Shown here in pieces: positions 1,556-39,243 of a DNA stretch of 64,000 nucleotides; positions within the stretch are counted from its first letter, which is position 1; every line of letters starts with the position of its first letter. Below the pieces are notes generated by a model. That model was not told the origin of the DNA. It was given only the letters and a program-made list of their open reading frames with translations, and ran no database searches. This DNA is from an uncultured Carboxylicivirga sp. (GTDB lineage Bacteria; Bacteroidota; Bacteroidia; Bacteroidales; Marinilabiliaceae), in the NCBI GenBank assembly GCA_947503525.1, contig CANNEA010000001.1, forward strand, positions 248,001 through 312,000. Direction: 5' to 3'. Made by a program: the position numbers and the translations under genes.

Positions 1556-1614
1556 CAAAGGTAATTGAGGGGGAGAAGTTACGCAGGGACAAATATAAGG
1601 AGTGTAAGGGTGTA
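1556..1614 (-). promoter_or_regulatory. Putative promoter of the beta-helix gene: C-run motif plus -7 box
   Basis: On the minus strand TACACCCTTA (1614-1605) precedes TACCTTTG (1563-1556), a perfect match to the Bacteroidota -7 consensus TAnnTTTG. From the A before CCC to the -7 box is 48 bases, matching the arrangement at other glycan genes here. A second C-run on this strand (1573-1569) lies too close to the -7 box to fit the pattern. Confidence 0.5.
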
Positions 1615-1802
1615 TATTGGTTAGGTGGTTTAGACCCTTGATAATGTTGCCAATAATTGGAGGGTTTTGTGATGGGATGAGGGGTAATTCTTAAACATAT
1701 ATGAGTTAATTAGCTTTTTTTGCTAGTGTCCTTTTGTTTTGAGGGCTCTGTTAGTGTCACAAAATGAGATGTATAGATTTCTTTTAAAGAAGGTGAGGTT
1801 CA

Positions 1803-1865
1803 TTATCCCCCCTTTTTTGATTGCAATATGCCACTATTGAGTTTTTAGTATTGATTGTAGGTTTG
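1803..1865 (+). promoter_or_regulatory. Putative promoter of the GH3 gene: C-run motif plus -7 box
   Basis: TTATCCCCCC (1803-1812) is followed by TAGGTTTG (1858-1865), a full match to TAnnTTTG. The first C is 51 bases from the -7 box. No TTTG lies at the usual -33 position, as expected for an activator-dependent promoter. Confidence 0.55.
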
Positions 1866-1943
1866 AGGTTTAAACAAATTGAGCGTTCGTTTTTTTTATA
1901 AGATCGAGACAGGTAAATATAGAGAATCTAGTAATTTATTAAT

Positions 1944-4133
1944 ATGAAGAGAGTTAAGTTGATTGCCGTGGCTTTAGTAGCCTTTTTGGGTTGGATAAAT
2001 GCACAAGAATCCAGTTTTGAATGGTACAACACAGATTTACCGGTTGATGAAAGAATTGATGCCTTAGTTCAGGCCATGACCTTGGAAGAAAAGGTATCTC
2101 AACTAAAAGATCATAGTGTAGGTATCCCTCGACTTGATATTCCGGAGTATAATTGGTGGAACGAATGTTTGCACGGAGTAGCCCGCAATGGAAGAGCTAC
2201 AGTATTTCCTCAGGCAATTGGTCTGGCTGCCACTTTTGATCCTGAACTAATTCAAAAGGTATCTACAGCCATTTCTGATGAGGCCCGTGCTAAATTTAAT
2301 ATCTCTATTAAAAATGGGAACAGATCACGATACGCAGGATTGACTTTTTGGACTCCAAATATTAATATCTTTCGTGATCCGCGATGGGGAAGAGGACAGG
2401 AGACTTATGGGGAAGATCCGTATTTAACTTCTCGAATTGGAATTGCCTTTGTAAAAGGATTGCAAGGTGATCATCCTGACTATTTAAAGGCAGCAGCGTG
2501 TGCTAAGCATTATGCTGTTCATTCAGGCCCTGAAGCATTACGTCATGAGTTTGATGCCATAGCTTCACCAAAAGATTTGCACGAGACGTATTTACCCGCT
2601 TTTGAAGCATTGGTTAAAGAAGCCAATGTAGAGGCAGTTATGGGAGCGTATAATCGGGTATTGGGAGAGCCTGCTTGTGGTAGTCCATTCTTATTGCAGG
2701 AAACTTTACGTGACAATTGGGGGTTTAAAGGGCATATTGTCTCAGACTGTGGAGCTCTTTCTGATTTTCATTTATATCATAAAGTGACCAATAGTCCGGA
2801 GGAATCAGCTGCATTAGCTCTTAATAGTGGTGTAGATTTAAATTGCGGTAATACCTACCCGCACCTGCTTAAAGCTGTTGAAAAAGGATTAGTTACTGAA
2901 GCTACGATTGATATAAGGTTAAAGACTTTACTTAAGTCCAGATTTAAACTTGGGCTTTTTGATCCAATAGAAAATAACCCATATAATTCCATTGATGAGT
3001 CAGTGGTGTGCAGTGATGAGCATAGTGAGCTAGCTTTGGAAGCTGCGCGAAAATCTTTGGTTTTATTGACGAATAAAAACAATGTATTACCCCTTTCAAC
3101 GGATATCAGAAATTTATACGTTACAGGTCCTCAGGCTAACAATAGTGAAGTGCTTTTGGGGAATTATTATGGAATGAGTAGTCGCCTGGTTAATATTCTG
3201 GAGGGTATAACAGCTGCAGTTAGCACCGGTACAACCATTAATTATAAGCAGGGTTGTTTGCCTTTCCGTGAAAATGTGAATCCTATGGATTGGACTACGG
3301 GCGAGGCTAAAGCATCGGATGCTATAATTGCTGTATTGGGAATCACTGGAGCCATGGAGGGTGAGGAAGGAGAAGCTATTGCATCGGATACTAAAGGTGA
3401 TAGATTGAAACCTTACTTGCCGAAAAATCAATTGGAATTTTTGCGTAAGCTCAGAAAGGATAATACAAAACCAATTATTGTGGTAATGACTTCTGGTAGT
3501 CCAATGATAATGCCTGAAGTTGCTGAATTAGCCGATGCTATTGTTTGGGCATGGTATCCGGGTCAGGAAGGTGGAACTGCTGTTGCGGATGTAATTTTTG
3601 GGAAAGTTTCTCCTTCAGGAAGATTGCCACTTACATTTCCATCATCCATTGATCAGCTTCCTGCCTATGATAACTATGACATGGCTGGCAGAACTTATAA
3701 ATATATGAAGGAAGAACCTTTATTTCCTTTCGGCTTTGGATTGGGATACTCTAAGTTTTCGTATGCCAATGCCAATGTGGATAATGCTTCTTTAAAAAGG
3801 GGAAAAACGGTAACAGTATCTTTTGAGCTTAAGAATGAAGGCGAAATGGATGCTGAAGAAGTTGTACAGGTGTATTTAAGTCAGCCCGGAGCTGGTGAAG
3901 CTGCTCCCTATAAAAAGTTAGTTGATTTCAAACGAGTGGCCTTAAAATCTGGTGAATCCAAAAGCATATCATTTGAGATTGATTCAGAGAAAATGAAACA
4001 ATATACGGATACAGGTGATGCTGTTGTTAAAAAAGGAATTTACACCGTGGCCATTGGTGGAACTTCGCCAACAAGCCGAATTGAAGAATTAGGGGCAGCG
4101 GATTTGGTTAAAGTTGACTTTAAATTAAAATAG
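1944..4133 (+). CDS. GH3 family beta-xylosidase / beta-glucosidase, secreted
   Basis: Exo-acting glycoside hydrolase that would release non-reducing-end beta-linked sugars in the periplasm. A signal peptide covers residues 1-20 (ends GWINA). The N-terminal GH3 barrel has KHY (188-190) and the nucleophile context VSDCGA with Asp268. NWWNE, FPQAIGLAATFD and TFWTPNINIFRDPRWGRGQE are hallmarks of the xylosidase-type branch. The second alpha/beta domain carries MEGEE (471-475), where the acid/base Glu is expected. A fibronectin-III-like C-terminal domain follows (about 640-725). The 729-residue length is normal for the branch, and no PA14 insert was seen. Xylosidase activity is the best guess but glucosidase or arabinosidase cannot be excluded. 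The gene is a single unit with its own promoter and terminator. Confidence 0.9.
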   Translation: MKRVKLIAVALVAFLGWINAQESSFEWYNTDLPVDERIDALVQAMTLEEKVSQLKDHSVGIPRLDIPEYNWWNECLHGVARNGRATVFPQAIGLAATFDPELIQKVSTAISDEARAKFNISIKNGNRSRYAGLTFWTPNINIFRDPRWGRGQETYGEDPYLTSRIGIAFVKGLQGDHPDYLKAAACAKHYAVHSGPEALRHEFDAIASPKDLHETYLPAFEALVKEANVEAVMGAYNRVLGEPACGSPFLLQETLRDNWGFKGHIVSDCGALSDFHLYHKVTNSPEESAALALNSGVDLNCGNTYPHLLKAVEKGLVTEATIDIRLKTLLKSRFKLGLFDPIENNPYNSIDESVVCSDEHSELALEAARKSLVLLTNKNNVLPLSTDIRNLYVTGPQANNSEVLLGNYYGMSSRLVNILEGITAAVSTGTTINYKQGCLPFRENVNPMDWTTGEAKASDAIIAVLGITGAMEGEEGEAIASDTKGDRLKPYLPKNQLEFLRKLRKDNTKPIIVVMTSGSPMIMPEVAELADAIVWAWYPGQEGGTAVADVIFGKVSPSGRLPLTFPSSIDQLPAYDNYDMAGRTYKYMKEEPLFPFGFGLGYSKFSYANANVDNASLKRGKTVTVSFELKNEGEMDAEEVVQVYLSQPGAGEAAPYKKLVDFKRVALKSGESKSISFEIDSEKMKQYTDTGDAVVKKGIYTVAIGGTSPTSRIEELGAADLVKVDFKLK

Positions 4134-4159
4134 AAAGATTAGTATATAATATAGAAAGT

Positions 4160-4197
4160 AATCTCTTCTCACAATAGTGAGAGGAGATTTTATTTTT
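4160..4197 (+). terminator. Rho-independent terminator after the GH3 gene
   Basis: A 13-bp stem (AATCTCTTCTCAC with GTGAGAGGAGATT, one G-T pair) with loop AATA is followed by a T-rich run. It lies 27 bases after the GH3 stop. Confidence 0.85.
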
Positions 4198-4226
4198 AGT
4201 ACTAAACCGTTTTAAAATAAGGGGCT

Positions 4227-4234: not shown

Positions 4235-4303
4235 CGATGTTTTTATGTTTTTCATTGATTTCTTTTGTTTTTAGTATATTCATGCTGTAATAACCAACAT
4301 GCT

Positions 4304-7300
4304 ATGCGTCGATTGTTTTCTATCTTATTGGTATTGAATTGTCTTGTATTATCTGCTCAATCAGAATTTGAACATTTGAGTTCAATTGATGGCCTTTCGC
4401 AGAATGATATCAATTTTATATTTCAGGATTCAAAAGGTTTTATGTGGTTTGGTACCGTTGATGGACTGAATCGCTATGACGGGATGAATTTTGTGACTTA
4501 TAAGCCAACCTCCCCGATGGAGAAACCACTGGGAAGTAACCTTCCATTTTGCATAACAGAAGATCCTTTGGGTAATTTCTGGATAGGTACTTCTGATGCA
4601 GGTTTATGGTATCACAATAGAAAGAAGGATGAGTTTTATCAGATACCTTATACGCACGAAGGCGATCGCTTATTTACCGACTGGAAAGTGGGTGCAATTT
4701 ATTTAGATTCTAATGGAATATTGTGGGTGGCCACATCCAATGGTTTGACATTATTAGATACCAATGAATACCATAAAGGGAAATATAAATGTAGGGTAAT
4801 TGATACACAAAGTAACCCTGGTAGTTCGGAAATTAGTGCCTATCTATTTAATACGGTCTATGTTTGTGAAGACAAAAGAGGTGATATGTGGCTGGGATCG
4901 GGTTATGGTCTTTTTAGAGTAGAACTGAGTGATCAGTTAGATTTAAAAATGACTATAATGGATCAATGTCCTCGTGGTTTTTGTAAAGGCTTAATTGAAA
5001 CTAAGAATGGTTTTATAGGTGCATTTTACGATGGTATTTATACAATTAACAGAACATTGTCCCAAGAAAGGTACGTTGTAACCAGATGCTCAAACAGATA
5101 TCTGAATATTCTATATGAATCGAATGAAGGTCGATTGTGGGGAGGCGGTATGCAGGGTCTTTATCAATTTGATTATAATGCAAATACAGACGTTTTTCAA
5201 GAAGTTAATCATTTTGTAACTGATTTTAGTAATCCTAAGAGTTTAAGTAAGAATAATATTACTACAATTTATGAAGATAGATCGGGTTTACTTTGGGTTG
5301 GTACCAATGGTGGAGGACTGAATAAACTGGATTTGAATAAAAAGAAGTTTGAGCATGTCTTTGAGGCTCCCAAGGGTTCAGGTTACAGTTATAATAAGGT
5401 GCGTGGCTTCGTTGAAGATTCCAAAGGTAACTTATGGATAGGTACTGAAGGTAGCGGGTTGTTTAAGCTTAAGGTGGGAGAAGATGGTAATTACTCGGAT
5501 GAATTCGAGAATAAATCTGTTGCCTTTTTCTCATCGGATCAGAACTATATCTACTGTATTGACAAAATTCCAAATACGAAGGATAAGTTTGTATTTGGTG
5601 CGGGCTACCCTGTTAAATTAGGAGTTGCGTATTACGATGAGAAAGAAGGAATCGTTATTGATAGGTATAGTTCAGAGATTAGTAATTCAGCTTTTGTTGT
5701 TTTTATAGACAGGGATGATAATATCTGGATTGGAACTTATGGTGATGGTTTGTATAAAGCAAAGTATAATGTTGAGACCGATAAATTAGAATTTCTGTCG
5801 CATTATTCGGTGAAAGAAGGGAGTACCAGTCTTACTTCAGACGTTATCAGAGGTCTTTGCGAAGATCCTTATGGGAATATATTTATTGGAACAGATAAAG
5901 GCTTGAATGTTTTACCGGTGAATGAGCGCTTTAATATAAATCCGACCTTTAAAGTATACCAGCATGATGCAAATGACATTAATTCATTAGCCCATAACTA
6001 TGTGCTTGATATTTTTGTGGATAGTAAAAATACCGTCTGGGTTGGTTCAATGGGAGGTGGTCTTTGTAAGGTTATATATGAAGAGAATGGTAAATTAAGC
6101 TTTGATAAATATACAACGGAGAATGGATTTCCTAATGACGTAATTAAGGCCATTGAAGAGGATGAAGATGGGAAACTATGGGTGTCTACGAATAAAGGCT
6201 TGTCTCGTTTTGATCCCATAAGTGCTGAAATCCGAAATTACACTACCATTGACGGCCTGCAAGGACTTGAATTTAGTGAGCTGGCCTCCTGCAAAAGAAA
6301 GGATGGAGCATTGCTTTTTGGGGGTGTAAAAGGATTCAACATATTTCGCCCTTCAGAAATTGTGGATAACCCTTATACCTCACCTGTTGAGTTCACCGAT
6401 TTAATTATACACAACGATGTTATATTACCGGGGCAAAAGTATAATAACCGTATACTTCTTGAATACGAAATGCCATCTACTGATGTTATTTTACTTAAAT
6501 ATGCGGAAAACAGTTTTTCGATAGGATTTTCGGCGCTTCACTTTTCGGCACCTGAAAAGATTCAATACAAATACATGCTGGATGGTTTTGATGTGGATTG
6601 GAACCTGGTTAATAATAAAGATCCAAGGGCAAAATATACCAACCTCTCGCCGGGTAAATATGAGCTTAAAGTTTTGGCTACAAATAATGATGGTGTTTGG
6701 ACAACGGTGCCATCCGTTATGAAAATAGAAGTTATCCCACCTTTTTGGCGAACAGAGTTGGCTATATTCTTTTATTTTATTCTTTTCATAGTCATGCTGG
6801 TCTTTTTCCGAAAGTATTCAATTATTGCTGTGACAAAAAAGAATGAATTGATGATGGAGCACTTTGAACAAGAGAAAATGAATGAATTGGTTCAGATGAA
6901 ACTTCAGTTCTTTACCAATATTTCTCATGAATTCCGCACTCCTCTAACCTTGATTCAAAGCCCACTAGAGAACCTCATTGATAAGAATGATGAAATAGAT
7001 AAGACCTATCGCTTGCGTACCTATTCACTTATGATGAAGAACATTAATATTCTGAATCGTCTGATTAATCAACTTATGGAGTTTCGTAAGTTGGAGCGCG
7101 GTAAAATGCCTTTGGCTGTGACCAGGGGAAATCTTATTGAGCTGGTTAAGGAAGTGTTTGATGCCTTTAATGAAATTGCCGAATCCAAGAATATTCGCTT
7201 TGAATTAAAGAATGTTTATTCCTCTGTTGAGCTTTGGTACGATTATGATAAGATGGAGAAGGTGTTGTTTAATCTTTTATCCAATGCCTTTAAATATACA

Positions 7301-8506
7301 CCGCAGAGTGGGGAGGTATCAATTATAGTTTCCGAAGAAGAGTTAGAGGGGCAGGAATGGGTTCGGATTAATGTGAAGGATAATGGGCCAGGGATTGATA
7401 AAGATAAATTGGCCTTTTTATTCGATCGTTTTTATCAAGCGGGAAGTCATAAATTATCTAAAGTCTCCGGAACCGGAATTGGATTAGCCTTTGCTAAAAA
7501 CCTTATTACCTTGCACAAAGGTGAAATCAGAGTAGAGAGTGATGCTGATAAAGGGACTGTTTTCTCGGTATACCTTAGAAAAGGTAAATTGCATTTTGCA
7601 AAAGAGGATTTCTCTACGGATCCAATTGAAACAAAAAATGAAAAATTAGTTGTTGTCAAAGATTATCAAATAGAGAAACCTGAGAAAGCAAAAGAAAACC
7701 TTGTACTGGATAAGAATAAGCCGACCTTATTGATAACTGAGGATAATCTTGATGTTCAAAGCTTGTTAAAGGAAAATCTTGAATCTGAATTCAATTGTAT
7801 ACAGGCCTATAATGGCGTTGAAGGATTAGAATTGGCTCAAAAGAATGTGCCTGATTTAATAATAAGTGATGTGATGATGCCTGAGATGGATGGCTTTGAA
7901 ATGTGTGACAAAATAAAGAACGATGAGAATATTTGTCACATTCCAATAATCATGTTGACCGCAAAATCAACTGATAAGGACAAGGTTCACGGACTTACAG
8001 GGGGAGCAGAAGCTTATGTTTCGAAGCCATTTAATATTGAGGTGTTAAAAGCACAGGTGATGTCTATTTTGGATGCCAGACGCTTGGTGATGCAGAAATT
8101 TTCTCAAAAAATAGATATTGAACCTCAGGAGGTGACATTTACCTCAATAGATGAAAAACTCATTGAACGATTACTCAAGGTGGTGGAGCAGAATATTAGC
8201 AATCCTGAATTTACGGTTGTTCAGTTGGCCGATGAAGTAGGCATGAGTCAATCCAATTTAAATAAAAAATTAAAGGCCTTACTTGGGCAGACGGCAAACG
8301 TATTTATACGTACCATACGACTTAAGAGGGCAGCTCAATTACTCCGCTTGGATAGGCTTTCTGTAACTGATGTCGTATATGAAGTAGGGTTCAATGATAT
8401 GAAATATTTCAGGGAGTGTTTCAGGAAGCAGTTTAACACTACTCCTTCTGACTATGTTCGTACTCACCGCTCAGATGATAGTGAAAATACTGAAAACGAA
8501 GAATAA
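4304..8506 (+). CDS. Hybrid two-component system regulator (sensor kinase fused to AraC-type activator)
   Basis: One-protein glycan sensor of about 1400 residues. ATG 4304 is chosen because MRRLFSILLVLNCLVLSAQ is a good signal peptide; the frame is open upstream only through a TTG at 4265. Order: signal peptide; periplasmic beta-propeller repeats (DGLSQNDIN, DSKGFMWFGT, many WxGT repeats, about 20-690); Y_Y_Y domain (about 730-805); one membrane helix (about 817-838); histidine kinase with ISHEFRTPL (His875) and ATPase motifs NLLSN (about 990), DNGPG and GTGIGLAFAK; receiver domain with DVMMPEMDG (Asp1189) and a conserved Lys in SKPF; AraC helix-turn-helix (about 1300-1395). All catalytic residues are present. 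The protein probably senses oligosaccharides in the periplasm and activates the surrounding glycan genes. It is the only such regulator in the window and so the leading candidate for the shared C-run motif. Confidence 0.95.
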   Translation: MRRLFSILLVLNCLVLSAQSEFEHLSSIDGLSQNDINFIFQDSKGFMWFGTVDGLNRYDGMNFVTYKPTSPMEKPLGSNLPFCITEDPLGNFWIGTSDAGLWYHNRKKDEFYQIPYTHEGDRLFTDWKVGAIYLDSNGILWVATSNGLTLLDTNEYHKGKYKCRVIDTQSNPGSSEISAYLFNTVYVCEDKRGDMWLGSGYGLFRVELSDQLDLKMTIMDQCPRGFCKGLIETKNGFIGAFYDGIYTINRTLSQERYVVTRCSNRYLNILYESNEGRLWGGGMQGLYQFDYNANTDVFQEVNHFVTDFSNPKSLSKNNITTIYEDRSGLLWVGTNGGGLNKLDLNKKKFEHVFEAPKGSGYSYNKVRGFVEDSKGNLWIGTEGSGLFKLKVGEDGNYSDEFENKSVAFFSSDQNYIYCIDKIPNTKDKFVFGAGYPVKLGVAYYDEKEGIVIDRYSSEISNSAFVVFIDRDDNIWIGTYGDGLYKAKYNVETDKLEFLSHYSVKEGSTSLTSDVIRGLCEDPYGNIFIGTDKGLNVLPVNERFNINPTFKVYQHDANDINSLAHNYVLDIFVDSKNTVWVGSMGGGLCKVIYEENGKLSFDKYTTENGFPNDVIKAIEEDEDGKLWVSTNKGLSRFDPISAEIRNYTTIDGLQGLEFSELASCKRKDGALLFGGVKGFNIFRPSEIVDNPYTSPVEFTDLIIHNDVILPGQKYNNRILLEYEMPSTDVILLKYAENSFSIGFSALHFSAPEKIQYKYMLDGFDVDWNLVNNKDPRAKYTNLSPGKYELKVLATNNDGVWTTVPSVMKIEVIPPFWRTELAIFFYFILFIVMLVFFRKYSIIAVTKKNELMMEHFEQEKMNELVQMKLQFFTNISHEFRTPLTLIQSPLENLIDKNDEIDKTYRLRTYSLMMKNINILNRLINQLMEFRKLERGKMPLAVTRGNLIELVKEVFDAFNEIAESKNIRFELKNVYSSVELWYDYDKMEKVLFNLLSNAFKYTPQSGEVSIIVSEEELEGQEWVRINVKDNGPGIDKDKLAFLFDRFYQAGSHKLSKVSGTGIGLAFAKNLITLHKGEIRVESDADKGTVFSVYLRKGKLHFAKEDFSTDPIETKNEKLVVVKDYQIEKPEKAKENLVLDKNKPTLLITEDNLDVQSLLKENLESEFNCIQAYNGVEGLELAQKNVPDLIISDVMMPEMDGFEMCDKIKNDENICHIPIIMLTAKSTDKDKVHGLTGGAEAYVSKPFNIEVLKAQVMSILDARRLVMQKFSQKIDIEPQEVTFTSIDEKLIERLLKVVEQNISNPEFTVVQLADEVGMSQSNLNKKLKALLGQTANVFIRTIRLKRAAQLLRLDRLSVTDVVYEVGFNDMKYFRECFRKQFNTTPSDYVRTHRSDDSENTENEE

Positions 8507-8539: not shown

Positions 8540-8555
8540 AATACGAATAAGTTAA

Positions 8556-8617
8556 TTCTACCCCCCAAATATTAATGCTTAATTTGCCTTTGTTTGTGCA
8601 TATTGAATGTACTTTCG
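8556..8617 (+). promoter_or_regulatory. Putative promoter of the first GH29 gene: C-run motif plus -7 box
   Basis: TTCTACCCCCC (8556-8566) is followed by TACTTTCG (8610-8617), 7 of 8 matches to TAnnTTTG. The first C is 49 bases from the -7 box. The leader to the ATG at 8758 is about 140 bases. Confidence 0.5.
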
Positions 8618-10334: not shown

Positions 10335-10757
10335 ATGAATAATAGTAAGCATTCTCTTAGGTTTATTCAGTTTTATTTTTACATTATTTAAACTTATTAT
10401 TGCGATTGTGATTTAACTAATATGTACCGTAACAGCATGAGATGAGTAATGGATGTGATTATATAATCGTGTGGTTTATATAATAAAGAAGCTTTTTTTG
10501 TTTAAATATTAATTTTTTAAGTAGTTTGAAATATAATGTAACAATTGTTTAAGATGCTGATAATTAATAATAAGTGGTGATAGATACTGAATTTACCCCT
10601 CTTCTAAAACCGATATGCCTCCCTTGTAATTTTCCCCCCCGTAAAACGGGCTAAATTTTGACATAGTTTGTCTTGATTTGAATCTAGATTTGTAGTGTTA
10701 AAAAGTGTATTTAAACCTTAATCAAGATGAATATTCAAGTTATTGGTAATTCTTAAA
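10335..10757. other. Long leader region upstream of susC
   Basis: About 420 A+T-rich bases without a credible gene. They hold an extra C-run copy TTTACCCCTC (10592-10601), the C-run promoter at 10630-10692 and a leader of about 65 bases. No RNA structure was recognised. Confidence 0.6.
10630..10692 (+). promoter_or_regulatory. Putative promoter of the SusC/SusD operon: C-run motif plus -7 box
   Basis: TTTTCCCCCCC (10630-10640) is followed by TAGATTTG (10685-10692), a full match to TAnnTTTG. The first C is 51 bases from the -7 box. A second motif copy, TTTACCCCTC, lies 38 bases further upstream (10592-10601), so this promoter may bind two regulator units. Confidence 0.55.
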
Positions 10758-17899: not shown

Positions 17900-18190
17900 A
17901 TGCCCGATTTTAAGCATTGCTATGGTTAATTATCATTGGCTAATAGCTATTTATGCATCCATTAATATTTGTGTTGAAGGTAAAAATAGGAGGGGTATTT
18001 GATAATGTATTTTAGCTATGTATTGTATTTCAAAGCTTTAGCTAGGGCGCTGATCTATTTACCCCCTTATTTTACATCGAATATGTTACTTACTTAATAC
18101 GAAAGTGGTCTATTTTTGTATCCATAGTGTTATTAGTTCGTAAGACTAGAGAGCAATTTTTGAAATACGAAACTTGATAAAAAATATAAG
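17900..18190. other. Intergenic region with inverted and direct C-run motifs
   Basis: No gene was seen in this part of the 345-base gap. A minus-strand C-run (AAATACCCCTCC, 18000-17989) and a plus-strand C-run (18057-18066) face the same downstream gene. Only the plus-strand copy has a -7 box at the expected spacing. Confidence 0.55.
18057..18118 (+). promoter_or_regulatory. Putative promoter of the 18191 lipoprotein gene: C-run motif plus -7 box
   Basis: ATTTACCCCC (18057-18066) is followed by TATTTTTG (18111-18118), a full match to TAnnTTTG. The first C is 49 bases from the -7 box, and the leader to the ATG is about 70 bases. Confidence 0.55.
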
Positions 18191-22064: not shown

Positions 22065-25253
<3,189 letters not shown>

Positions 25254-25293: not shown

Positions 25294-25355
25294 TAAAGGT
25301 ACTTCAAGAAGCTTAGATGAAGATTGCTATTTTTTGATGATTATGGGGGGGATAT
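25294..25355 (-). promoter_or_regulatory. Putative promoter of the GH2 gene: C-run motif plus -7 box
   Basis: On the minus strand ATATCCCCCCC (25355-25345) precedes TACCTTTA (25301-25294), 7 of 8 matches to TAnnTTTG. The first C is 50 bases from the -7 box. Confidence 0.5.
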
Positions 25356-25372
25356 TCGATGATCTAATTTAT

Positions 25373-25427: not shown

Positions 25428-26258
25428 TTAGATTAATGTAGGTTTCTGGAGTTTAGATCGTAAATATTCCATCATCTGTACATTGATATTCCATTGCGAA
25501 GCGATAGGCATATTGGTATAAGGCACAGCCGGCATATAGGGTTCTGGTCCAAATTCAGGACAGATAAAAAACTGCTTTTGTCCATTCTCTTCAGCTATCT
25601 TCAATATAGCCTTCCACCATCCTACAAAGGTATTGAGGTAATCGGCATTCTCCGGAGTAAATGGGTTATTGACCTGGGGCGATTGGGTATGACCAACACG
25701 GGCATGAAGGTAGTGGCTATTTTGCATGGCCTTGTTTAACGAATGTGCCTGCTCTTCGAGAAAACTCTCCGATACTACTGCCCAATGAGAGAAGTCGGCA
25801 TTGAGTTTTAATTCAGGATACTTGTCTAAATATAAAAGGGTTTCTTTGGCTGAAAAAGGGAAACGGCCACGATGAGTTTCATGTACTATTGGAATACCCG
25901 AGTCTATTTCAAAGGCAATACATACATCAATGACCTTGCAGTTGTCTTCAAAGGAATAATAATCACGACCGGTATGCGAATTGATAAAAACCGGATTAAC
26001 CTCGGCCTTGAACTGTAAGGTCTTTTGTAAGCGTTTAATGTATGATTCAACGGATTCATTTCGAGGTTCAAGCCATTGTTGCGCCACACATATTAAGTTA
26101 TTTTCTTCAACTAAAGTCTTCACTTTTTGTATAAAAGCAGAATCTTCAGGAAGGTTAATTTCAATGCCATCATAGCCTGCAGCCACAACATCATCAATAA
26201 AAGATTCAATTGATCCGCCTTCTCTTCCCCAATAAGGACACAAGTATTTTAATTCCAT
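25428..26258 (-). CDS. Sugar phosphate isomerase/epimerase family protein (xylose-isomerase-like TIM barrel)
   Basis: A cytoplasmic protein of about 276 residues. ATG 26258 is chosen because MELKYLCPYWG starts the first barrel strand; the upstream extension from 26309 is not conserved-looking. Family signs are GYDGIEINLPE, NSHTGRDYYS, the metal-site region VHETHRGRFPFS, LNADFSHW, HARVGHTQSPQV and FFICPEFGPEPY. These give the Glu/Asp/His pattern of the divalent-metal site in this superfamily. The reaction is unknown; members isomerise or epimerise keto-sugars, and some act in 3-keto-glycoside pathways. It is divergent from an AraC regulator, whose control it probably shares. Confidence 0.85.
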   Translation of the reverse strand: MELKYLCPYWGREGGSIESFIDDVVAAGYDGIEINLPEDSAFIQKVKTLVEENNLICVAQQWLEPRNESVESYIKRLQKTLQFKAEVNPVFINSHTGRDYYSFEDNCKVIDVCIAFEIDSGIPIVHETHRGRFPFSAKETLLYLDKYPELKLNADFSHWAVVSESFLEEQAHSLNKAMQNSHYLHARVGHTQSPQVNNPFTPENADYLNTFVGWWKAILKIAEENGQKQFFICPEFGPEPYMPAVPYTNMPIASQWNINVQMMEYLRSKLQKPTLI

Positions 26259-26306
26259 TTTTATCAGTTGCTTAATAATAGACGAAAATAAAGGGAATAT
26301 AAAAGA

Positions 26307-26314
26307 CAAACTTA
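26307..26314 (-). promoter_or_regulatory. -7 promoter box of the isomerase gene
   Basis: The minus strand reads TAAGTTTG (26314-26307), an exact TAnnTTTG match 49 bases before the chosen ATG. No C-run motif lies 50 bases upstream, so this gene appears to be outside the C-run group. Confidence 0.4.
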
Positions 26315-26393
26315 TCTGCTATTATCAGAAAAGTGTACTATATTGATAGCGATACTATCGGATGTATCAAATAAGGTTATAATCGGATATGTT

Positions 26394-27239
26394 ATGAGGG
26401 CTGTTTTTGAAAATATTATACACGATCAGAGTTCATCCATTCATTTATACGAATACAATAAAAAGGATTTTGAAACGCCTTTGCATTTCCATCCCGAATA
26501 TGAATTGGTATACATTATTGAAGGCAAGGGTACCCGATATGTGGGCGATAATGTATCGGAATTTGTGGAGGGCGATTTGGTATTGTTGGCGCCCAACGTC
26601 AACCATTGCTGGAAAAACTACAAACACTTTTCGGGCCAATGTCGTTCATTGGTTATCCAATGGAAGGAAGGTTTACTGGGTAATCAGGTGGAATATGAAC
26701 CTTTAAAAATGTTTTTACAGAAAAGTAGGAGAGGCCTGCGCTTTAAAAAACCGGGTAAGTTGCTGAGTCAACTTATGGATTTACAAAAAGAAGAGGGTTT
26801 GGGGCGTATCCTAAGCTTAATCAGTTTACTGAATGTCTTATCAAGTGAAGTGGAGGTACAGGCCTTAAGTTCAGGTTTTCAAATGGGCCGACGCACCCTA
26901 AAAAACAATGAACGTTTAGATAAACTCTATGAATTTGTTGAGCACAATTATCAGCAACGAATCAGCTTAGAGCAAGCTGCAGCTGAGGTGCATATGACTA
27001 AGGAAGCTTTTGCCCGCTTCTTTAAAAAGCATACCAATAAAACCTTCTTTACTTATCTTAATGAGTTTAGAATAGCCAGAGCTTGCCGTATGATTAAAGA
27101 ATCAGATTGTTCGGTGACCCAATTGTGTTTTGATAATGGTTTTGAGAGTCTGGCTTATTTCCATCGCATGTTTAAGCAGCTAAAGGCTGCAACTCCATTA
27201 CAATACAAAAAGAAGTTGCAGCGATCAGTACTGAAGTAA
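26394..27239 (+). CDS. AraC family transcriptional regulator with cupin sensor domain
   Basis: A 281-residue one-component regulator. ATG 26394 (MRAVFENIIHDQ) is chosen; the upstream frame is open only through TTG. The N-terminal cupin has LHFHPEYELVYIIEGKGTRY (about 30-50) and GDLVLLAPNVNHCW. The C-terminal AraC domain has two helix-turn-helix units: LEQAAAEVHMTKEAFARFFK and VTQLCFDNGFESLAYFHRMF. The cupin probably binds a small sugar or keto-sugar. The gene is divergent from the sugar isomerase and ends 5 bases before the convergent M28 gene with no room for a terminator. The isomerase is the likely target. Confidence 0.92.
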   Translation: MRAVFENIIHDQSSSIHLYEYNKKDFETPLHFHPEYELVYIIEGKGTRYVGDNVSEFVEGDLVLLAPNVNHCWKNYKHFSGQCRSLVIQWKEGLLGNQVEYEPLKMFLQKSRRGLRFKKPGKLLSQLMDLQKEEGLGRILSLISLLNVLSSEVEVQALSSGFQMGRRTLKNNERLDKLYEFVEHNYQQRISLEQAAAEVHMTKEAFARFFKKHTNKTFFTYLNEFRIARACRMIKESDCSVTQLCFDNGFESLAYFHRMFKQLKAATPLQYKKKLQRSVLK

Positions 27240-27244
27240 ATACT

Positions 27245-28708
27245 TTAGAATTTATAGCCGATACTAAATTGTGAGTTGATAAATCTGGTAGGGCCATTAA
27301 TGTGATTTGGAAATACATCAGTAAAAGATTTGCGTCGGGTATAGGCAACTTGAAATTGTGCCAGTTCCACACCAAAGCCCCAGCTTAAACCGGTTTCTGA
27401 TTCATTGATCGTGTTTGTGTCTTTAAAGTCCTTATCAACATAGTTTAAATCGTTGGATGCAAAGTGGTAGCTATAGTACACCCCGCCTTTTATAAACAAT
27501 CGAGGAGAATAGCTGTCTTGAAATGGCGTTCGTAGCATAAGGTTTAAAGGGGTTGTTAGCGAATGCGTGTTAAAGTCTCCTTCATAGGAGCTTGTAGAAC
27601 GATAATCATACAGGGCTTCGGGCTGTAGGGCCAGCCATTGACTTAGTTTCAATTGAGCAAAAAGGCCTGCTGAAAAGGACACTTTGCTATAGGTATTTAT
27701 TTTAGCATCACTAAAGTCAATCTTTGAAGAACCAATATTAAGGCGGGCTCCCGCTATGAGTGGCGCATCCAGTTTATTGGTGTAGTATTTATGCATTGAA
27801 GCATGCGATACTAATTCGTGCTGTTGAGCTAATTCAAGAGTAACGTCATTTAAAAATGCACTTACCTTAATCATGCCCTCGTAGTCAATCTTTTCAGCTG
27901 TATCTTCAGGTTTATGGTAGGGTGATTTTAATCCGGTAAAAGCATGAGCAGCCGGAATGCGTTCATCTATAAATGAACCTGTGTCAGTTTGCTGTTCCTT
28001 TTTCTTACTTGTTTTTACATCAAGCTGATGCTTTAGGCTTAATTCATTAATAAGTAGAGTGTTGTTGGTAATCAGGTCCATGCCATTTAAGTCCAAACCC
28101 TTATTGGCCGTGTACATACCAACCATGTCGATGCTTAACATCCATTTGATTTGCTCGGGATTAACCAATTTGTCATCTAATAAAAAGGAAGAACCAAGGA
28201 GCCCACTCTCTTCCGCGTCGAAAGCAACCAATATGATGCTACGTTTAAGCTCATTTTGATTCGCTTTTAAAAAACGAGCCATCTCTATTACGGATGCTAC
28301 TCCTGTGGCATTGTCATCTGCACCATTGTAGATTATGGAATCCTGATCCTCGATATGAAAGCCCATATGATCGTAGTGAGCTCCAATAACAAGGTATTCG
28401 TCTTTTAACTTAGGATCAGATCCTGTAATTTGGCCCACTATATTTTGGGCATGAATTCGATAGGTACCATCCGTATACTCAAAATGATGAATGTAAGCAT
28501 CACCTAGTGGCTCCAATCCAAGTGAGGTGAATTGATCTTTTATATATTTTAAGGCTCTGGTATGTCCCTGGGTTCCTATTCCGCGTCCCTCCATTGAGTC
28601 AGCGGCAAGAATTTCAACATGTTGTTGTAATAAGGATTTAGTTTGGGAATAGGTGCTAAGGCTGGTATATAGCAATAGGAAGAATGTAATTTTAAATATA
28701 AGATTCAT
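27245..28708 (-). CDS. M28 zinc aminopeptidase fused to a C-terminal outer-membrane beta-barrel
   Basis: A 487-residue secreted protein with a signal peptide ending LSTYSQ. Residues of about 24-300 are an M28 peptidase with the expected zinc ligands: His111 (GAHYDH), Asp131 (NGADDN), Glu166/167 (DAEES), Asp194 (SIDMVG) and His265 (PYHKPED). From about 305 to the end the sequence changes to alternating strands ending in Phe: LIAGARLNIGSSKIDF, VSFSAGLFAQLKLSQWLAL and NSQFSIGYKF. This looks like a PorT/OMP-type eight-stranded barrel. The fusion would tether the peptidase to the outer membrane. M28 alone is common, whereas this pairing is unusual to my knowledge. The role in a glycan locus may be degradation of algal glycoproteins. 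Confidence 0.85.
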   Translation of the reverse strand: MNLIFKITFFLLLYTSLSTYSQTKSLLQQHVEILAADSMEGRGIGTQGHTRALKYIKDQFTSLGLEPLGDAYIHHFEYTDGTYRIHAQNIVGQITGSDPKLKDEYLVIGAHYDHMGFHIEDQDSIIYNGADDNATGVASVIEMARFLKANQNELKRSIILVAFDAEESGLLGSSFLLDDKLVNPEQIKWMLSIDMVGMYTANKGLDLNGMDLITNNTLLINELSLKHQLDVKTSKKKEQQTDTGSFIDERIPAAHAFTGLKSPYHKPEDTAEKIDYEGMIKVSAFLNDVTLELAQQHELVSHASMHKYYTNKLDAPLIAGARLNIGSSKIDFSDAKINTYSKVSFSAGLFAQLKLSQWLALQPEALYDYRSTSSYEGDFNTHSLTTPLNLMLRTPFQDSYSPRLFIKGGVYYSYHFASNDLNYVDKDFKDTNTINESETGLSWGFGVELAQFQVAYTRRKSFTDVFPNHINGPTRFINSQFSIGYKF

Positions 28709-28816: not shown

Positions 28817-30907
28817 TTATAAGGCTTTGAACTGAATAGCTTGTCCGCCACCCGGTGCTAATATCAGTTCCAGTTTGTCCTTTGAACTAACTTTCTTTTT
28901 AGTAATGACAAATACCTCAGGATTATCCTCCCAATGTGCATCTTCACTATCTGCATATATGCTTGCTTCGTACTGCTTATCAGAAGATAAAAAGGACAGA
29001 TCAATATTCAGTGTTCTTCCATTCTCATCACTTATACTACCCAAATACCAATTGTCAGTACCGCGCTCCTGGCGCACAACAGTATAGTAATCGCCAATTT
29101 TGCTATTAAGTACTTTGGAATCGGACCAGTTAGTTGGAACGTCTTTAATAAACTGGAATGCGGCATTGCCTTCATAATTTTCCGGTAAGTCAGCGGCCAT
29201 TGGCATTGGACTATACATGGTGAGGTAGTAAGCCAATTGTTTACAAATAGTTGTTCTAACTCTGAATTTTTCTTTACTCCAATCTTTGGGAGGCAAAAGC
29301 ATTTTAAAAATTCCGGGTGTAAAATCAATTGGTCCACCCAATATGCGTGTAAAAGGCAAAACTACTCCATGTTCAGGGCTGTTGCCTTTACTCCATGCAT
29401 TGTATTCCTGTCCTCTCACACCTTCGCGAGCCATCAGGTTAGGATAGGTGCGTTGTTCACCGGTAAACTTAATGGGTTCGTGGTTAACAATTAGTAATTC
29501 ATACTCAGCTGCCTTCTGAACCATTTTTTTGTAATGACGAACCATATACTGTCCATGATGGTGTTGGCGGTAGGTCTTTGTGTCATAGTCGTAATTCACA
29601 TCCCCTGTGTAACCAACCTTAATGGTTTTTATGCCCAGGTCGCGACACATTTTAAACAAAGTATCCATGGCTGGTTCGTAGTGGTCAATATCCGATATGG
29701 TTTCATGATACATCATCATGCGAACGCCTTTTGATTTTGCATAGGCACAAACCTCTTCAATATCGAAATCATCCGTTGGGGTCTTCCAGTCAAATATGCC
29801 ATAACCGGTCCATGAACCTTCCATATCATCCCAACCCTTATCCCAGCCTTCAATAAGAACGTCAGGAATGTTGTTCTTTGCAGCAAAATCGATGTGGTAC
29901 TTTGCATTTTTGGTGTTGGCGCCATGAGGTCGATTGATAGGCTTACCAAATTGCGTTTTTTCTGCCCAGGCACTCTTCCCAATGTGTAATTCCCACCAGA
30001 TCCCAATATATTTATAAGTTTCTATCCAATCGGTTGTTTCATAGGCCACAGGCGGATTCAGATTCATAATCATATCTGATTCAACTAAACCACCAGCTGT
30101 TTCGGAAATTTGAATGGTTCGCCATGGTGACTTAAAGGGTGTTGATGCACGAACTAAATCACCGTTTCGCCATGGAGTTAAGTGAGCCTTTAATTTTTGG
30201 CCTTCTTTAGTATTTAATAAGTTCATTCCGGCATAGTCTGTCAAGTCGGCTTCGTGAATACTAACAACTAAGTTTTCGTTTACCTCAATTGTTGTAGGTG
30301 TATTCGCCATATTGGCTCGCTCTTCTTTGTCGGGGCGCCGTTCATATTTGATACTATCTCCTATTTCAGAAACCGGAGAGTTATAGTATACTTTCTCGTA
30401 ATTATCATAGTCGGCAAAATTCCACCAGGCCTTATAATCTCCTGCAAAGTTAAATTCGGTTAGCTCATCCATAATAATGAAGTCTTGCAGTTTACCTTGC
30501 TTCGAAAAAACATAACGAAAGGCCACACCATCGTTAAAGGCACGAGCTATTACGTCAATAAATATACCTGAGTTTTTTTGTTGTAAATGAATGATCAGTT
30601 CATTGTAGTGATTTCTAACCTCTTCTTTTTGGCCCCAGACAGTTTTCCAGCTAGAATCATGTGTTTTATACTCATAGTTTAATAAAGTAAAATCGTCCTT
30701 AAGCGATTGTGTTTTTAAATCGAAGCCCATCACAGACTTGGCAATAAACTCCTGTTCATTGCTTTTTACAGCATAGCTTAGTATGCCTGATTGATCAATC
30801 TCGAAGGTGATTGTGTTTGAATTATCCGGAGAGGATAAGTTCGTTTTTGTATTTTGCTGACAAGCCAATAGTAGCAGTAATAGAGCAAAAAGGAATAGAT
30901 TCTTCAT
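28817..30907 (-). CDS. GH97 family glycoside hydrolase, inverting (SusB-like) type, lipoprotein
   Basis: A 696-residue lipoprotein (LLLLAC, Cys16). The N-terminal beta-sandwich covers about 30-285, the TIM barrel about 295-590 and a C-terminal beta domain the rest. Barrel motifs are VLIEGWDKGWDD, MMMYHETISD, VNHEPIKFTGEQRTYPN and GVRGQEYNAW, then ILGGPIDFTPGIF. Glu402, Glu477 and Glu501 correspond to the three catalytic glutamates known in the calcium-dependent inverting enzyme SusB. The position where retaining GH97 alpha-galactosidases have a nucleophilic Asp reads KVGYTGD here, with Gly432, so an inverting alpha-glucosidase-like enzyme is the better prediction. A possible substrate is algal storage glucan or an alpha-linked side chain. 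It has its own C-run promoter. Confidence 0.92.
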   Translation of the reverse strand: MKNLFLFALLLLLLACQQNTKTNLSSPDNSNTITFEIDQSGILSYAVKSNEQEFIAKSVMGFDLKTQSLKDDFTLLNYEYKTHDSSWKTVWGQKEEVRNHYNELIIHLQQKNSGIFIDVIARAFNDGVAFRYVFSKQGKLQDFIIMDELTEFNFAGDYKAWWNFADYDNYEKVYYNSPVSEIGDSIKYERRPDKEERANMANTPTTIEVNENLVVSIHEADLTDYAGMNLLNTKEGQKLKAHLTPWRNGDLVRASTPFKSPWRTIQISETAGGLVESDMIMNLNPPVAYETTDWIETYKYIGIWWELHIGKSAWAEKTQFGKPINRPHGANTKNAKYHIDFAAKNNIPDVLIEGWDKGWDDMEGSWTGYGIFDWKTPTDDFDIEEVCAYAKSKGVRMMMYHETISDIDHYEPAMDTLFKMCRDLGIKTIKVGYTGDVNYDYDTKTYRQHHHGQYMVRHYKKMVQKAAEYELLIVNHEPIKFTGEQRTYPNLMAREGVRGQEYNAWSKGNSPEHGVVLPFTRILGGPIDFTPGIFKMLLPPKDWSKEKFRVRTTICKQLAYYLTMYSPMPMAADLPENYEGNAAFQFIKDVPTNWSDSKVLNSKIGDYYTVVRQERGTDNWYLGSISDENGRTLNIDLSFLSSDKQYEASIYADSEDAHWEDNPEVFVITKKKVSSKDKLELILAPGGGQAIQFKAL

Positions 30908-30947: not shown

Positions 30948-31008
30948 TAAAAATAGATGGACTGGAATGAATTAATCCGAGAATTTATTTAGGATTACAG
31001 GGGGAAAA
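30948..31008 (-). promoter_or_regulatory. Putative promoter of the GH97 gene: C-run motif plus -7 box
   Basis: On the minus strand TTTTCCCCCTG (31008-30998) precedes TATTTTTA (30955-30948), 7 of 8 matches to TAnnTTTG. The first C is 49 bases from the -7 box. Confidence 0.5.
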
Positions 31009-31025
31009 TGGAATTTCAAAGTCAT

Positions 31026-31092: not shown

Positions 31093-32667
31093 TTATTCAG
31101 CTATTTCGCCATCTATATCAGCTTCCTTATAACCTTTGCAGGTAATTTTAAAAGCATGCGAATGATCTGTTGGGTATGATTTAGGTGCTTTAATAATTAA
31201 GCCCTTCTCATTTCTTTCCCAGCTTAACTCTTCCTCGCTTCCCAAAAGTTCAACTGTCTCAATAGCATTATTTAAAGCACCTATTTGTGTGCTTAAAGTA
31301 TTAATTACAATCTCTTTTTCAGGTTTATCCATTACAATGGCAAACATTTCGGTATCACTCTTCTTTGTAAATCGAATATCCAGATTGGTATATTCAATCT
31401 TACCTTTCTCTTCAATTTTGTGTCCACCGGCTTCAATGCGGGTTGGTCCTTCTCCAAAAACTGTCCAAACACGAGTCCCGTAAATTGCCTCTCCATTAAT
31501 CTTTAGCCATTCGCCCATTTCAATAAGCAGGTCCTGCATCTCCTGAGGAATAGAACCATCCGGATTTGGAGGAACATTCAATAACATACAGCCATTTTTA
31601 GCAACAATGTCAACCAGAATATCAACCAACTCGTTGGCGTCAACAAATTTGGCATTTGAGCGATAAAACCATGCTCCAGGTGAAGTGTCGGTTAGCCAGG
31701 CCTGTGACTTAGGCTGGTTAGGGCGACCACGCTCGTAATCTCTTATGGCAGTTTCTTCAGGGAAAGTCGTTTCCTTAAAACAAACGGCAACATCCTTATT
31801 CCATTCTTTACCCTTATTATAATAGTAGGCTAAAAACTTCTGACGTGCATCTTCATCCAGGTGCTCCAACCACCAATCAAACCACAATAAGTCAGGTTGG
31901 TATACATCAATGTATTCTTTTAATTTAGCCCACCACTCGTTCATAAAACGCTCGGTTGGAACATTATCACCTAATTTATGAGGTTCAGTATATAAATCGT
32001 AGTCGGCTTCATCAATGGTAGTGTATTCATGTGCCGGTGCAAAGTATTTCCATGTAAAGGCATGGTGGAAGGAGCCCATAAATTTCATATCTCTCGACTC
32101 AATTTCCTTTTTCAACTCAGCCGAAATGTCAATGCCACCATAATTCATCGAGTTCCATCGGGTACTCTTGGCATTCCACATGGCAAAGTTATCGTGGTGC
32201 ATGGCTACCGGACCGGCAAACCTGGCGCCTGATGCCTTAAATAAATCTGCCCATTGTTGAGCATTAAATCCTGAAGGATCAAATTTTTCTATTAATTCTT
32301 TGTAACCAAATTCAGCAGGATCACCAAAAAGTTTAACATGATGGGTGTAGTTAGAGGTTGTGCCTCCTTCATATGTACTGCTTAACCATTCCGGACGTCC
32401 TTTTTTACCATACATCATCATGCCATGCCAACCGTCCATGTGCTGATTTTCTTCCATATCAACAAAGGCACCTGATACTGGTCCCCAATGGGCATATATT
32501 CCAAATTTGGCATCCATAAACCAATTTGGAGTTACATTGGCTTTACTTAATGATTCCCAATCTTCAGTGAAGACTGCTTTATCTTGTTCGCATGTTTCAG
32601 TTTTATTACAACACCCAAATAATATAAATGAGCTTGCCAGTGCAACTGATAGTATAGTTTTTTTCAT
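31093..32667 (-). CDS. GH29 alpha-L-fucosidase family lipoprotein (second copy)
   Basis: A 524-residue GH29 enzyme with lipobox LFGC (Cys19). The barrel begins WFMDAKFGIYAHWGPVSG. AMHHDNFAMWNA carries the HHD motif (157-159). Asp264 in PDLLWFD is the nucleophile, and MLLNVPPNPDGSIP follows. It is clearly diverged from the other two copies: an extra loop MEENQHMDGWHGMMMYGKKG after the first strand and VPPNPDG instead of VGPKADG. Different substrate linkages among the three GH29 enzymes are therefore likely. It is divergent from the sulfatase operon. L-fucose or L-galactose are both possible sugars. Confidence 0.9.
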   Translation of the reverse strand: MKKTILSVALASSFILFGCCNKTETCEQDKAVFTEDWESLSKANVTPNWFMDAKFGIYAHWGPVSGAFVDMEENQHMDGWHGMMMYGKKGRPEWLSSTYEGGTTSNYTHHVKLFGDPAEFGYKELIEKFDPSGFNAQQWADLFKASGARFAGPVAMHHDNFAMWNAKSTRWNSMNYGGIDISAELKKEIESRDMKFMGSFHHAFTWKYFAPAHEYTTIDEADYDLYTEPHKLGDNVPTERFMNEWWAKLKEYIDVYQPDLLWFDWWLEHLDEDARQKFLAYYYNKGKEWNKDVAVCFKETTFPEETAIRDYERGRPNQPKSQAWLTDTSPGAWFYRSNAKFVDANELVDILVDIVAKNGCMLLNVPPNPDGSIPQEMQDLLIEMGEWLKINGEAIYGTRVWTVFGEGPTRIEAGGHKIEEKGKIEYTNLDIRFTKKSDTEMFAIVMDKPEKEIVINTLSTQIGALNNAIETVELLGSEEELSWERNEKGLIIKAPKSYPTDHSHAFKITCKGYKEADIDGEIAE

Positions 32668-32694: not shown

Positions 32695-32751
32695 TAAAAG
32701 TAATTTGATGTGATTAAATGTAGGAGTAGAAAATAGTTTAAATAGGGTGGT
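32695..32751 (-). promoter_or_regulatory. Putative promoter of the second GH29 gene
   Basis: On the minus strand ACCACCCTA (32751-32743) precedes TACTTTTA (32702-32695), 7 of 8 matches to TAnnTTTG and identical to the box of the divergent sulfatase gene. The spacing from the A before CCC is 46 bases, slightly short, so this is the weakest member of the set. Confidence 0.35.
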
Positions 32752-32805
32752 CATTTGAATACAATGCTCAAATAATCTGCTTTTCATCATTTGTTTTGTG
32801 TCCTT

Positions 32806-32835
32806 AAAAATACACCCCTAATATGGTGTATTTTT
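32806..32835. repeat. Perfect 11-bp inverted repeat around a C-run motif in a divergent promoter region
   Basis: AAAAATACACC (32806-32816) and GGTGTATTTTT (32825-32835) flank loop CCTAATAT. It resembles a terminator in both directions but sits between two divergent genes. It overlaps the sulfatase C-run motif, so it is more likely an operator or an upstream transcription block. Confidence 0.65.
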
Positions 32836-32869
32836 TTACGTATGTACTCTCTTAAAGCTGCTACTTTTA
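32811..32869 (+). promoter_or_regulatory. Putative promoter of the sulfatase operon: C-run motif plus -7 box
   Basis: TACACCCCTA (32811-32820) is followed by TACTTTTA (32862-32869), 7 of 8 matches to TAnnTTTG. The A before CCCC is 48 bases from the -7 box, the same as for the beta-helix gene at the left edge, which has the near-identical TACACCCTTA. Confidence 0.5.
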
Positions 32870-32896
32870 TAAAATAGATTAATAGAATAAACTCAT

Positions 32897-35935: not shown

Positions 35936-35968
35936 ACAGAATTATATAAAAACTTAAAATACAAACTA

Positions 35969-37459: not shown

Positions 37460-37473
37460 TACTATTGTGTTTA

Positions 37474-37550
37474 AACGTGGTGGCTCAGTATTGTAAAAGA
37501 AAGCTTTTATAAATACATCGTGTAGCATTGAGAGTCCGCCACGTTTTTTT
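37474..37550 (+). terminator. Long branched terminator of the sulfatase-GH43-GH29 operon
   Basis: AACGTGG (37474-37480) pairs with CCACGTT (37539-37545) and seven T follow. The 58-base insert can form inner pairs of its own (GCTCA with TGAG), giving a branched structure. Confidence 0.7.
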
Positions 37551-37588
37551 GTGCCTTATGGTTAAATTATAGATTTGAGATTGTCTAC

Positions 37589-37619
37589 TTTGATTGGTTT
37601 GTCATTGAAGCTATCTTTA
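37589..37619 (+). promoter_or_regulatory. Canonical -33/-7 promoter of the acetylesterase gene
   Basis: TTTG (37589-37592) and TATCTTTA (37612-37619) are separated by 19 bases, the usual Bacteroidota -33/-7 arrangement. No C-run motif is found upstream. This contrasts with the C-run promoters, which lack a -33 TTTG. Confidence 0.5.
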
Positions 37620-37667
37620 TAATCAATTTATTTCCTAAAAGATTAATAATCACTAATAGATAAAGAC

Positions 37668-39077: not shown

Positions 39078-39100
39078 AATTAAACTTTAAATCATAAATA

Positions 39101-39139
39101 CAAGGGTGTTACTTTTTTTAGTGACACCCTTGTTTATTG
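39101..39139 (+). terminator. Terminator after the acetylesterase gene
   Basis: Stem CAAGGGTGTTACT / AGTGACACCCTTG (one T-G pair) with a T6 loop is followed by a T-rich stretch. Confidence 0.85.
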
Positions 39140-39180
39140 TAACCTAATAATTTCTTGCTCGTATGTAGCTCTCAAGTGTC

Positions 39181-39243
39181 AATTTACCCCTCTAATTGAA
39201 GCTTGATATTGCCCTACATAGAATACGAATCATCCTAATTTTG
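39181..39243 (+). promoter_or_regulatory. Putative promoter of the GH86 gene: C-run motif plus -7 box
   Basis: AATTTACCCCTC (39181-39192) is followed by TAATTTTG (39236-39243), a full match to TAnnTTTG. The first C is 49 bases from the -7 box, and the leader to the ATG is only about 15 bases. Confidence 0.55.

Follow-up and report, generated by a model that had tools for sequence, protein, structure and literature searches.

The question raised by this 64,000-nucleotide stretch of an uncultured Carboxylicivirga sp. (contig C1:248001-312000, the whole of which is called the window) is what the promoters of its glycan-degradation genes have in common and which regulator acts on them. The genome of 6.56 Mb contains 45 SusD_RagB matches. 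The locus encodes a glycoside hydrolase (GH) of family 3, three of GH29, a GH2, a GH97, a GH43-CBM6, a sulfatase, a sialic-acid-type acetylesterase and SusC/SusD, and a protein previously read as GH86 was found to carry the Pfam beta-porphyranase domains BPA_C and Porphyrn_cat_1. Because of these enzyme families, including the porphyranase-type protein, the substrate looks like a red-algal galactan. An earlier note on this DNA described a run of C at a fixed distance upstream of a TAnnTTTG-like -7 box in ten promoters, and proposed a common activator binding near -60, with the hybrid regulator at 4304 as the leading candidate. The most likely answer, as far as it can be read from sequence, is that the genes for seaweed-sugar digestion share a two-part DNA address, which would be bound by a sugar-sensing regulator from the same cluster acting as activator.

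The 4304 protein combines a sensor propeller, a histidine kinase, a receiver and an AraC-type DNA-binding domain in one polypeptide, the architecture of a hybrid two-component system (HTCS). PMC11253607 describes a conserved S/CHIP-DK motif through which the receiver and the DNA-binding domain of HTCSs make contact; CHIP was found in the receiver of the 4304 protein, in a comparison limited to the CHIP part. Its AraC domain is one of two HTH_18 matches within the window, the other belonging to an AraC-cupin protein at 26343.

All ten coordinates given in the earlier note proved right, and eight of the sites are strict, combining four to seven consecutive C with a box that departs from TAnnTTTG in no more than one position (GH3, GH29, SusC, the 18191 lipoprotein, GH2, GH97, sulfatase and GH86; Table 1). 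The proposed core ACCCC or TCCCCC fits these eight, but not the beta-helix gene (ACACCC) or the second GH29 gene (CACCC), where the run is degenerate; the latter had been named the weakest site.

Table 1. Predicted operators and the hybrid regulator gene in the window.
Feature	Positions	Strand	Evidence
Degenerate operator (ACACCC), beta-helix gene; -7 box TACCTTTG at 1563-1556	1583..1619	-	Score 21.2, window matrix not trained on site
Operator (C-run 1807-1812), GH3 gene 1944; -7 box 1858-1865	1801..1837	+	Leave-one-out 21.4
Hybrid two-component regulator (4304 protein)	4265..8506	+	Pfam: Reg_prop/Y_Y_Y sensor, HisKA, HATPase_c, Response_reg, AraC HTH (HTH_18)
Operator (C-run 8561-8566), GH29 gene 8758; -7 box 8610-8617	8555..8591	+	Leave-one-out 23.9
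Operator (C-run 10634-10640), SusC gene 10743/10758; -7 box 10685-10692	10629..10665	+	Leave-one-out 24.3
Operator (C-run 18062-18066), lipoprotein (DUF4625) 18191; -7 box 18111-18118	18055..18091	+	Leave-one-out 24.2
Operator (C-run 25351-25345), GH2 gene 22065-25253; -7 box 25301-25294	25320..25356	-	Leave-one-out 19.5
Operator (C-run 31004-31000), GH97 gene 28817-30907; -7 box 30955-30948	30975..31011	-	Leave-one-out 21.6
Weak, uncertain operator (CACCC, no C-run of 4), second GH29 gene 31093-32667; box TACTTTTA at 32702	32720..32756	-	Score 16.0, 18-site matrix not trained on site
Operator (C-run 32815-32818), sulfatase operon 32897; -7 box 32862-32869	32807..32843	+	Leave-one-out 22.6
Operator (C-run 39187-39190), GH86 porphyranase-type gene 39266; -7 box 39236-39243	39179..39215	+	Leave-one-out 21.1

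A further copy, AATTTACCCCTCTTCTAAAACCGATATGCC, was noticed at 10590-10619, 38 nt upstream of the C-run of the SusC operator. The SusC promoter may carry two tandem operators, judging from this copy.

Enrichment was assessed with genes called as the longest open frames and upstream regions of at least 90 nt, cut at 300, comparing window positions 1400-41800 (16 regions) with the rest of C1:1-840000 (267 regions). A run of at least four C followed at 46-54 nt by a box with no more than one mismatch was present in 8/16 regions of the window versus 11/267 elsewhere (Fisher p=8e-7, a post hoc value, the locus having been picked in the earlier note), and with perfect boxes in 4/16 versus 3/267 (p=2e-4). 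Other spacings gave 2/16 versus 9/267 (30-45 nt) and 2/16 versus 12/267 (55-80 nt). Among the 22 pairs of C-run and box in all sampled sequence of this genome (8 in the window, 14 other), the 3' end of the run lay 43-45 nt from the -7 box in all eight window pairs and in ten of the others. For this bin of a histogram from 15 to 84 nt in 3-nt steps, 0.49 and 2.19 were expected; a control with runs of G gave 4 against 2.64 expected. The distance is thus fixed, as claimed, and stands out against controls; the true anchor is the 3' end of the run, and the range of 46-52 given before was blurred because it had been measured from the start of runs differing in length.

The lack of a TTTG at -33 had been offered as a further sign of an activator. 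This holds for the motif promoters, of which 2/18 have one, but it is not distinctive, as 13/106 other upstream regions with a perfect TAnnTTTG do, and the argument was rejected. For F. johnsoniae, too, PMC7366714 reports that no -33 motif was recognised. The acetylesterase promoter has the TTTG-N19 spacing and no C-run, just as had been described.

The 18 own sites at 43-45 spacing (8 from the window, 9 elsewhere on C1, 1 at C2:512190) yielded a consensus of two blocks. In the distal block A/T occupies -10 and -8, followed by the C-run, a T at 0, A/T at +2 and +3 and a T at +5; in the second, A/T is found at +13, T at +16 and C at +21/+22. Only the C-run and the -7 box had entered the selection of the sites. 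Promoters of SusCD operons that depend on extracytoplasmic function sigma factors would have a box unlike the sigma-A TAnnTTTG; all 18 sites bear TAnnTTTG-like boxes, but a box with no more than one mismatch had been a condition of their selection. Judged from sequence, the C-run makes up the distal half-site alone, in a direct repeat of some 22 bp. Foreign sites, 54 in number, were chosen by distal block and box only, and 46 were used after leaving out eight rows of L213, L214, L218, L223 and L238 as near-copies; in these the first half was repeated at lag 22 with a z of 10.3, lags 21-25 all having a z of at least 4.9. In Mucilaginibacter agri (L204) the promoter of a gene for 995 amino acids (aa) adjoining an HTCS carries two copies of AATTTACCCCCT at a distance of 21 bp. 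In PMC3878776, HTCS motifs are reported to be direct repeats whose distance averages 21 bp, and the present motif has both the direct repeat of about 21 bp and the position upstream of glycan operons near an HTCS gene.

A matrix with letters from the eight window sites alone was used to scan 343 other upstream regions of the genome, from C1:1-840000 outside 248-290 kb and from stretches of C2, C3, C4, C8 and C11 taken for holding SusC/SusD or HTCS genes. At a score of at least 20, nine matches were found (one in reversed sequence, a mean of 0.1 with 20 column-permuted matrices); at 17.5 there were ten (reversed 5, permuted mean 0.45) and at 15 sixteen (reversed 6, permuted mean 2.25, maximum 5). 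Fifteen of the sixteen, including the beta-helix promoter, lie at C1:95-360 kb and one precedes the HTCS gene C2:512190, identified by HTH_18. Half precede Pfam glycoside hydrolases (GH2, GH3, GH16 twice, GH29, GH43 twice and one with porphyranase domains); others stand before a DUF5060 protein, a TonB plug protein, a CBM_4_9 beta-helix protein, a sortilin-type secreted protein and one without family, two matches (218431, 318094) having been left out of the Pfam scan. None of 50 upstream regions in an unselected stretch of 160 kb reached 15. The earlier observation is real, and the set of promoters is larger than the ten first listed and spread over the contig. Promoters of some other SusC genes were read by eye: no such run and box was found before the paralogues C4:253497 and C4:296460 or the SusC homologues of G017 and G009, the paralogue C1:366090 has a CCCC run with no box visible by eye at 43-45, and none of the three own paralogues was among the best 32 rows of the scan.

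The neighbourhood on C1 was inspected as well. A very large stretch at C1:160-385 kb holds further GH16, porphyranase-type, GH29 and GH43 genes and, at C1:361695-371010, a second HTCS adjoining SusC/SusD. The red-algal galactan region apparently reaches far past the window.

Related loci in other genomes were picked by similarity to the DNA-binding domain of the 4304 protein, or by the peptides FND[VM]KYF and G[QE]TANVFI. Domains with 80-83% identity were found in 5/149 genomes, the own genome included, and beside them 11/57 upstream regions scored at least 15 (reversed 0, permuted mean 0.6). Beside six domains of 55-59% identity, G064:C67 left out, this was 7/80 (reversed 1, permuted 0.6), and beside ten of 45-55%, which were lower by E-value, 4/129 (reversed 2, permuted 0.6). 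The lowest group differs from the first with p=5e-4 and from the second with p=0.07. In named genomes the six nearest loci gave 11/34 (reversed 0, permuted 0.3); four of these (Saccharicrinis aurantiacus, Labilibacter marinus and two Bacteroidales metagenome-assembled genomes) are contigs already counted, and the two new ones, both Labilibaculum (L191, L192), had a site in 6/10 upstream regions (reversed 0, permuted 0.3). Counts were 2/5 for L197 (reversed 1) and 26/365 for L198-L255 (reversed 5, permuted 2.3); of the 80 peptide-picked loci, L256-L270 were left out of scoring and L255 entered the upstream counts only.

Conservation is seen in G059, where the order 727 aa - HTCS - 506 aa - 1034 aa equals, matched by gene length, GH3 - HTCS - GH29 - SusC of the window, with C-run and box before each of the three genes around the HTCS (matrix scores 17.4, 11.1 and 28.1). 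Some counterparts of GH3, GH29 and SusC in other relatives have no site. Only promoters having one were compared, anchored on the C-run, which itself raises site identity: identities of site, spacer, box and flanks were 50%, 46%, 78% and 32-37% for SusC (5 promoters), 46%, 37%, 53% and 29-35% for GH3 (6) and 47%, 31%, 40% and 27-28% for GH29 (3). In the GH3 and SusC promoters with a site, site and box are more alike than the flanks.

In the Flammeovirga loci L212, L213, L214 and L223 a site stands before the HTCS gene itself and before a SusC-sized gene, which suggests autoregulation of the HTCS in this branch. Good C-run sites were also noted in L271 (C3:690-710 kb), before an HTCS gene with helix GFSSSSYFSKCF and before the neighbouring gene for a secreted protein.

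The presence of sites was further compared with the second recognition helix of the AraC domain, NDMKYFREC (GFNDMKYFRECF) in the 4304 protein, NDLKYYREN in C2:512190 and NDLRTFRSR in C1:361695. Over 81 loci (L193-L196, on the same contigs as loci already used, were left out), at least one site was present in 30/56 loci with an arginine after YF versus 3/25 without (p=3e-4), or 24/41 versus 2/17 with near-identical groups merged (p=0.001). Upstream regions with a site numbered 52/429 beside arginine helices (reversed 8) and 3/213 beside others (reversed 1). By comparison with MarA/SoxS, we take this position to lie in the DNA-facing helix. Helix class is confounded with overall similarity to the 4304 protein, the loci having been chosen by similarity or peptides; because it follows general similarity, the arginine is only a candidate determinant of site preference. 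The site frequency, which falls with similarity of the DNA-binding domain and goes with the recognition helix, speaks for the 4304 protein as leading candidate.

Several results weigh against this assignment. The layout of the matrix (anchor, blocks and 43-45 spacing) was set after viewing all 18 own sites, and the reversed controls of the own genome were not empty at any of the three thresholds. Twelve stretches picked by the C-run pattern gave 3/102 matches, against 3 in reversed sequence; the true-strand matches stand before the genes for an HTCS and a secreted protein, both at C3:697-700 kb, and before C10:116787, GH2-like by eye. A site stands directly before only 2/5 BPA_C (GH86-type) matches in the genome and 2/13 GH16 matches, with seven of the latter lacking one in scanned stretches and four lying outside the scan; both counts include genes inside operons. 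Genome-wide, the loose pattern CCCC-N40-56-TANNTTTG showed no excess (118 matches versus 117 reversed) and CCCCC-N41-46-TANNTTT was uninformative (50 versus 37), and the signal is therefore carried by context and tight spacing. The repeat is weaker in the 18 own sites, with a peak at lag 23-24 and a z of 3.9, than in the foreign ones. The HTCSs C1:361695 and C2:512190 also have sites nearby, making the assignment of protein to promoter ambiguous. Ten Bacteroides-type loci with helix REVF had sites in 0/10, and the HTCS C3:700135, with helix SSSYFSK (GFSSSSYFSKCF), is an exception to the helix correlation in having two good sites. That the helix residue alone decides on the site is not claimed, given this counterexample and the confounding with similarity.

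The sites and their spacing, the repeat, the return of the sites in other genera and their correlation with the DNA-binding domain were computed directly; from these we infer HTCS binding, phosphorylation, ligand, activation and transcription starts. With good confidence, the motif is predicted to be the operator of an HTCS activator, the 4304 protein and its relatives, acting from about -57/-35. The membrane protein probably senses a red-algal galactan oligosaccharide through its periplasmic propeller and would pass phosphate to its own receiver domain, whereupon the AraC-type domain would dimerise on a pair of half-sites spaced by about 22 bp, or two helical turns. The distal half-site, AATTT-CCCCC-TTATTT, would be strong and the proximal one, A-ATTT--CC, weaker. 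The distal C-run ends 44+/-1 nt before the presumed sigma-A -7 box; in Flavobacterium psychrophilum the TAnnTTTG box spans -12 to -5 (PMC9723704), and on this numbering the run would end at about -57. The proximal half-site would then sit at about -35, next to RNA polymerase, and could replace the -33 contact. The idea of a common activator near -60 agrees well with the repeat of about 22 bp, as in HTCS operators, and with the recurrence of these sites next to HTCS orthologues of other genera. A broader proposal is put forward tentatively: an HTCS protein-DNA code in which ND[MVL][KR]YFR (arginine after YF, K/R three before) would specify a CCCC half-site at fixed promoter distance across separated Bacteroidota branches, with one operator class tying porphyranase-type, GH16, fucosidase and sulfatase genes of several loci into a red-algal galactan regulon.

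It is rather unlikely that another own HTCS, above all C1:361695, activates most or all of the sites, or that several HTCSs share the operator, the 4304 protein controlling only part. C1:361695 has the DNA-binding domain nearest to that of 4304 among 36 other own AraC-type domains compared, and the HTCS gene C2:512190 has a site of its own. In a count over six own HTCSs, which left out C2:512190, sites within 15 kb numbered five for 4304, four for C1:361695 and none for the other four, one of them with FRK. Against a leading role of C1:361695, loci of relatives with a TFR helix are poor in sites (G111C113 0/4, G064C5 1/12 with 2 reversed), whereas 4304 orthologues have many, and in G059 the 4304 orthologue is surrounded by three genes that each have a site and whose order matches the window by gene length. 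Very improbable is binding of the C-run by the one-component AraC-cupin regulator (26343-27239) or by a global carbon regulator such as Cur/BT4338, even though an AraC-type gene does lie within the locus and Cur acts on Bacteroides glycan loci (PMC5061871, PMC11501099). The Cur consensus given in PMC11501099 is a palindrome, wwwTATGTTnTAnAACATAwww, and the best matches to TATGTTnTAnAACATA in the 18 sites have 4-6 mismatches out of 14, at a background median of 5; moreover, the motif follows HTCS DNA-binding domains across genera, in a comparison limited to HTCSs. It is hardly credible that base composition alone produces the C-runs, or that they act as a non-specific element of promoters in A+T-rich DNA. 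In favour of this view, the loose pattern has no genome-wide excess, runs of at least four C occur in 41/267 other upstream regions and reversed controls are not empty; against it, the spacing peaks at 43-45 nt, the unselected own stretch gave 0/50, the site recurs where flanks have diverged and column-permuted matrices stay far below the real one.

Two further features of the locus were noted. At 25428-27239 a gene for a xylose-isomerase-type TIM barrel is divergent from the AraC-cupin regulator, whose recognition helix GFESLAYFHRMF is unlike the HTCS helix. At 27245-28708, inside the glycan locus, an outer-membrane beta-barrel domain is fused to an M28 peptidase.

An exact promoter geometry, together with a correlation of helix and sequence over many genera, would let sequence alone assign regulators to scattered degradation genes. 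The motif also yields a prediction of co-induced genes beyond the main locus and offers a simple binding test for HTCS regulators. In AraC-family operators such as araI1-I2, two half-sites follow each other in tandem at a distance of about 21 bp; the proximal one adjoins the -35 region, and activation is from one face. The tandem layout is alike here; the sequence differs, and the regulator would be a membrane-bound hybrid kinase. The carrageenan regulon of Zobellia galactanivorans is similar in its red-algal polysaccharide, dispersed genes and AraC-type activator, but the regulator CgrA is described as a member of the AraC family and not as an HTCS, and no operator is given in the available part of PMC5698469. 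SusR operators are also direct repeats before glycan operons, spaced 67 or 77 bp apart according to PMC3878776, versus about 22 here. HTCSs are described as a major class of glycan regulators in Bacteroides, and most of what is known of their operators comes from predictions for gut species (PMC3878776, PMC11253607). No description of the C-run motif was recognised in the open-access literature, the logos and supplements of PMC3878776 lying outside this search, so that an equivalent may exist. Closest are the HTCS operators of Bacteroides thetaiotaomicron (Ravcheev et al. 2013, PMC3878776), likewise two-site direct repeats, spaced by roughly two helical turns and lying before glycan operons that adjoin the HTCS gene, related HTCSs there having related motifs. 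The present element differs in its half-site AATTT-CCCCC, its fixed 43-45 nt to the -7 box and its candidate targets over several loci, in a comparison that did not extend to the published logos, among which a similar one is possible. It appears to be an element of a known kind, an HTCS-type operator, with a new sequence and an exact promoter geometry, recurring across genera.

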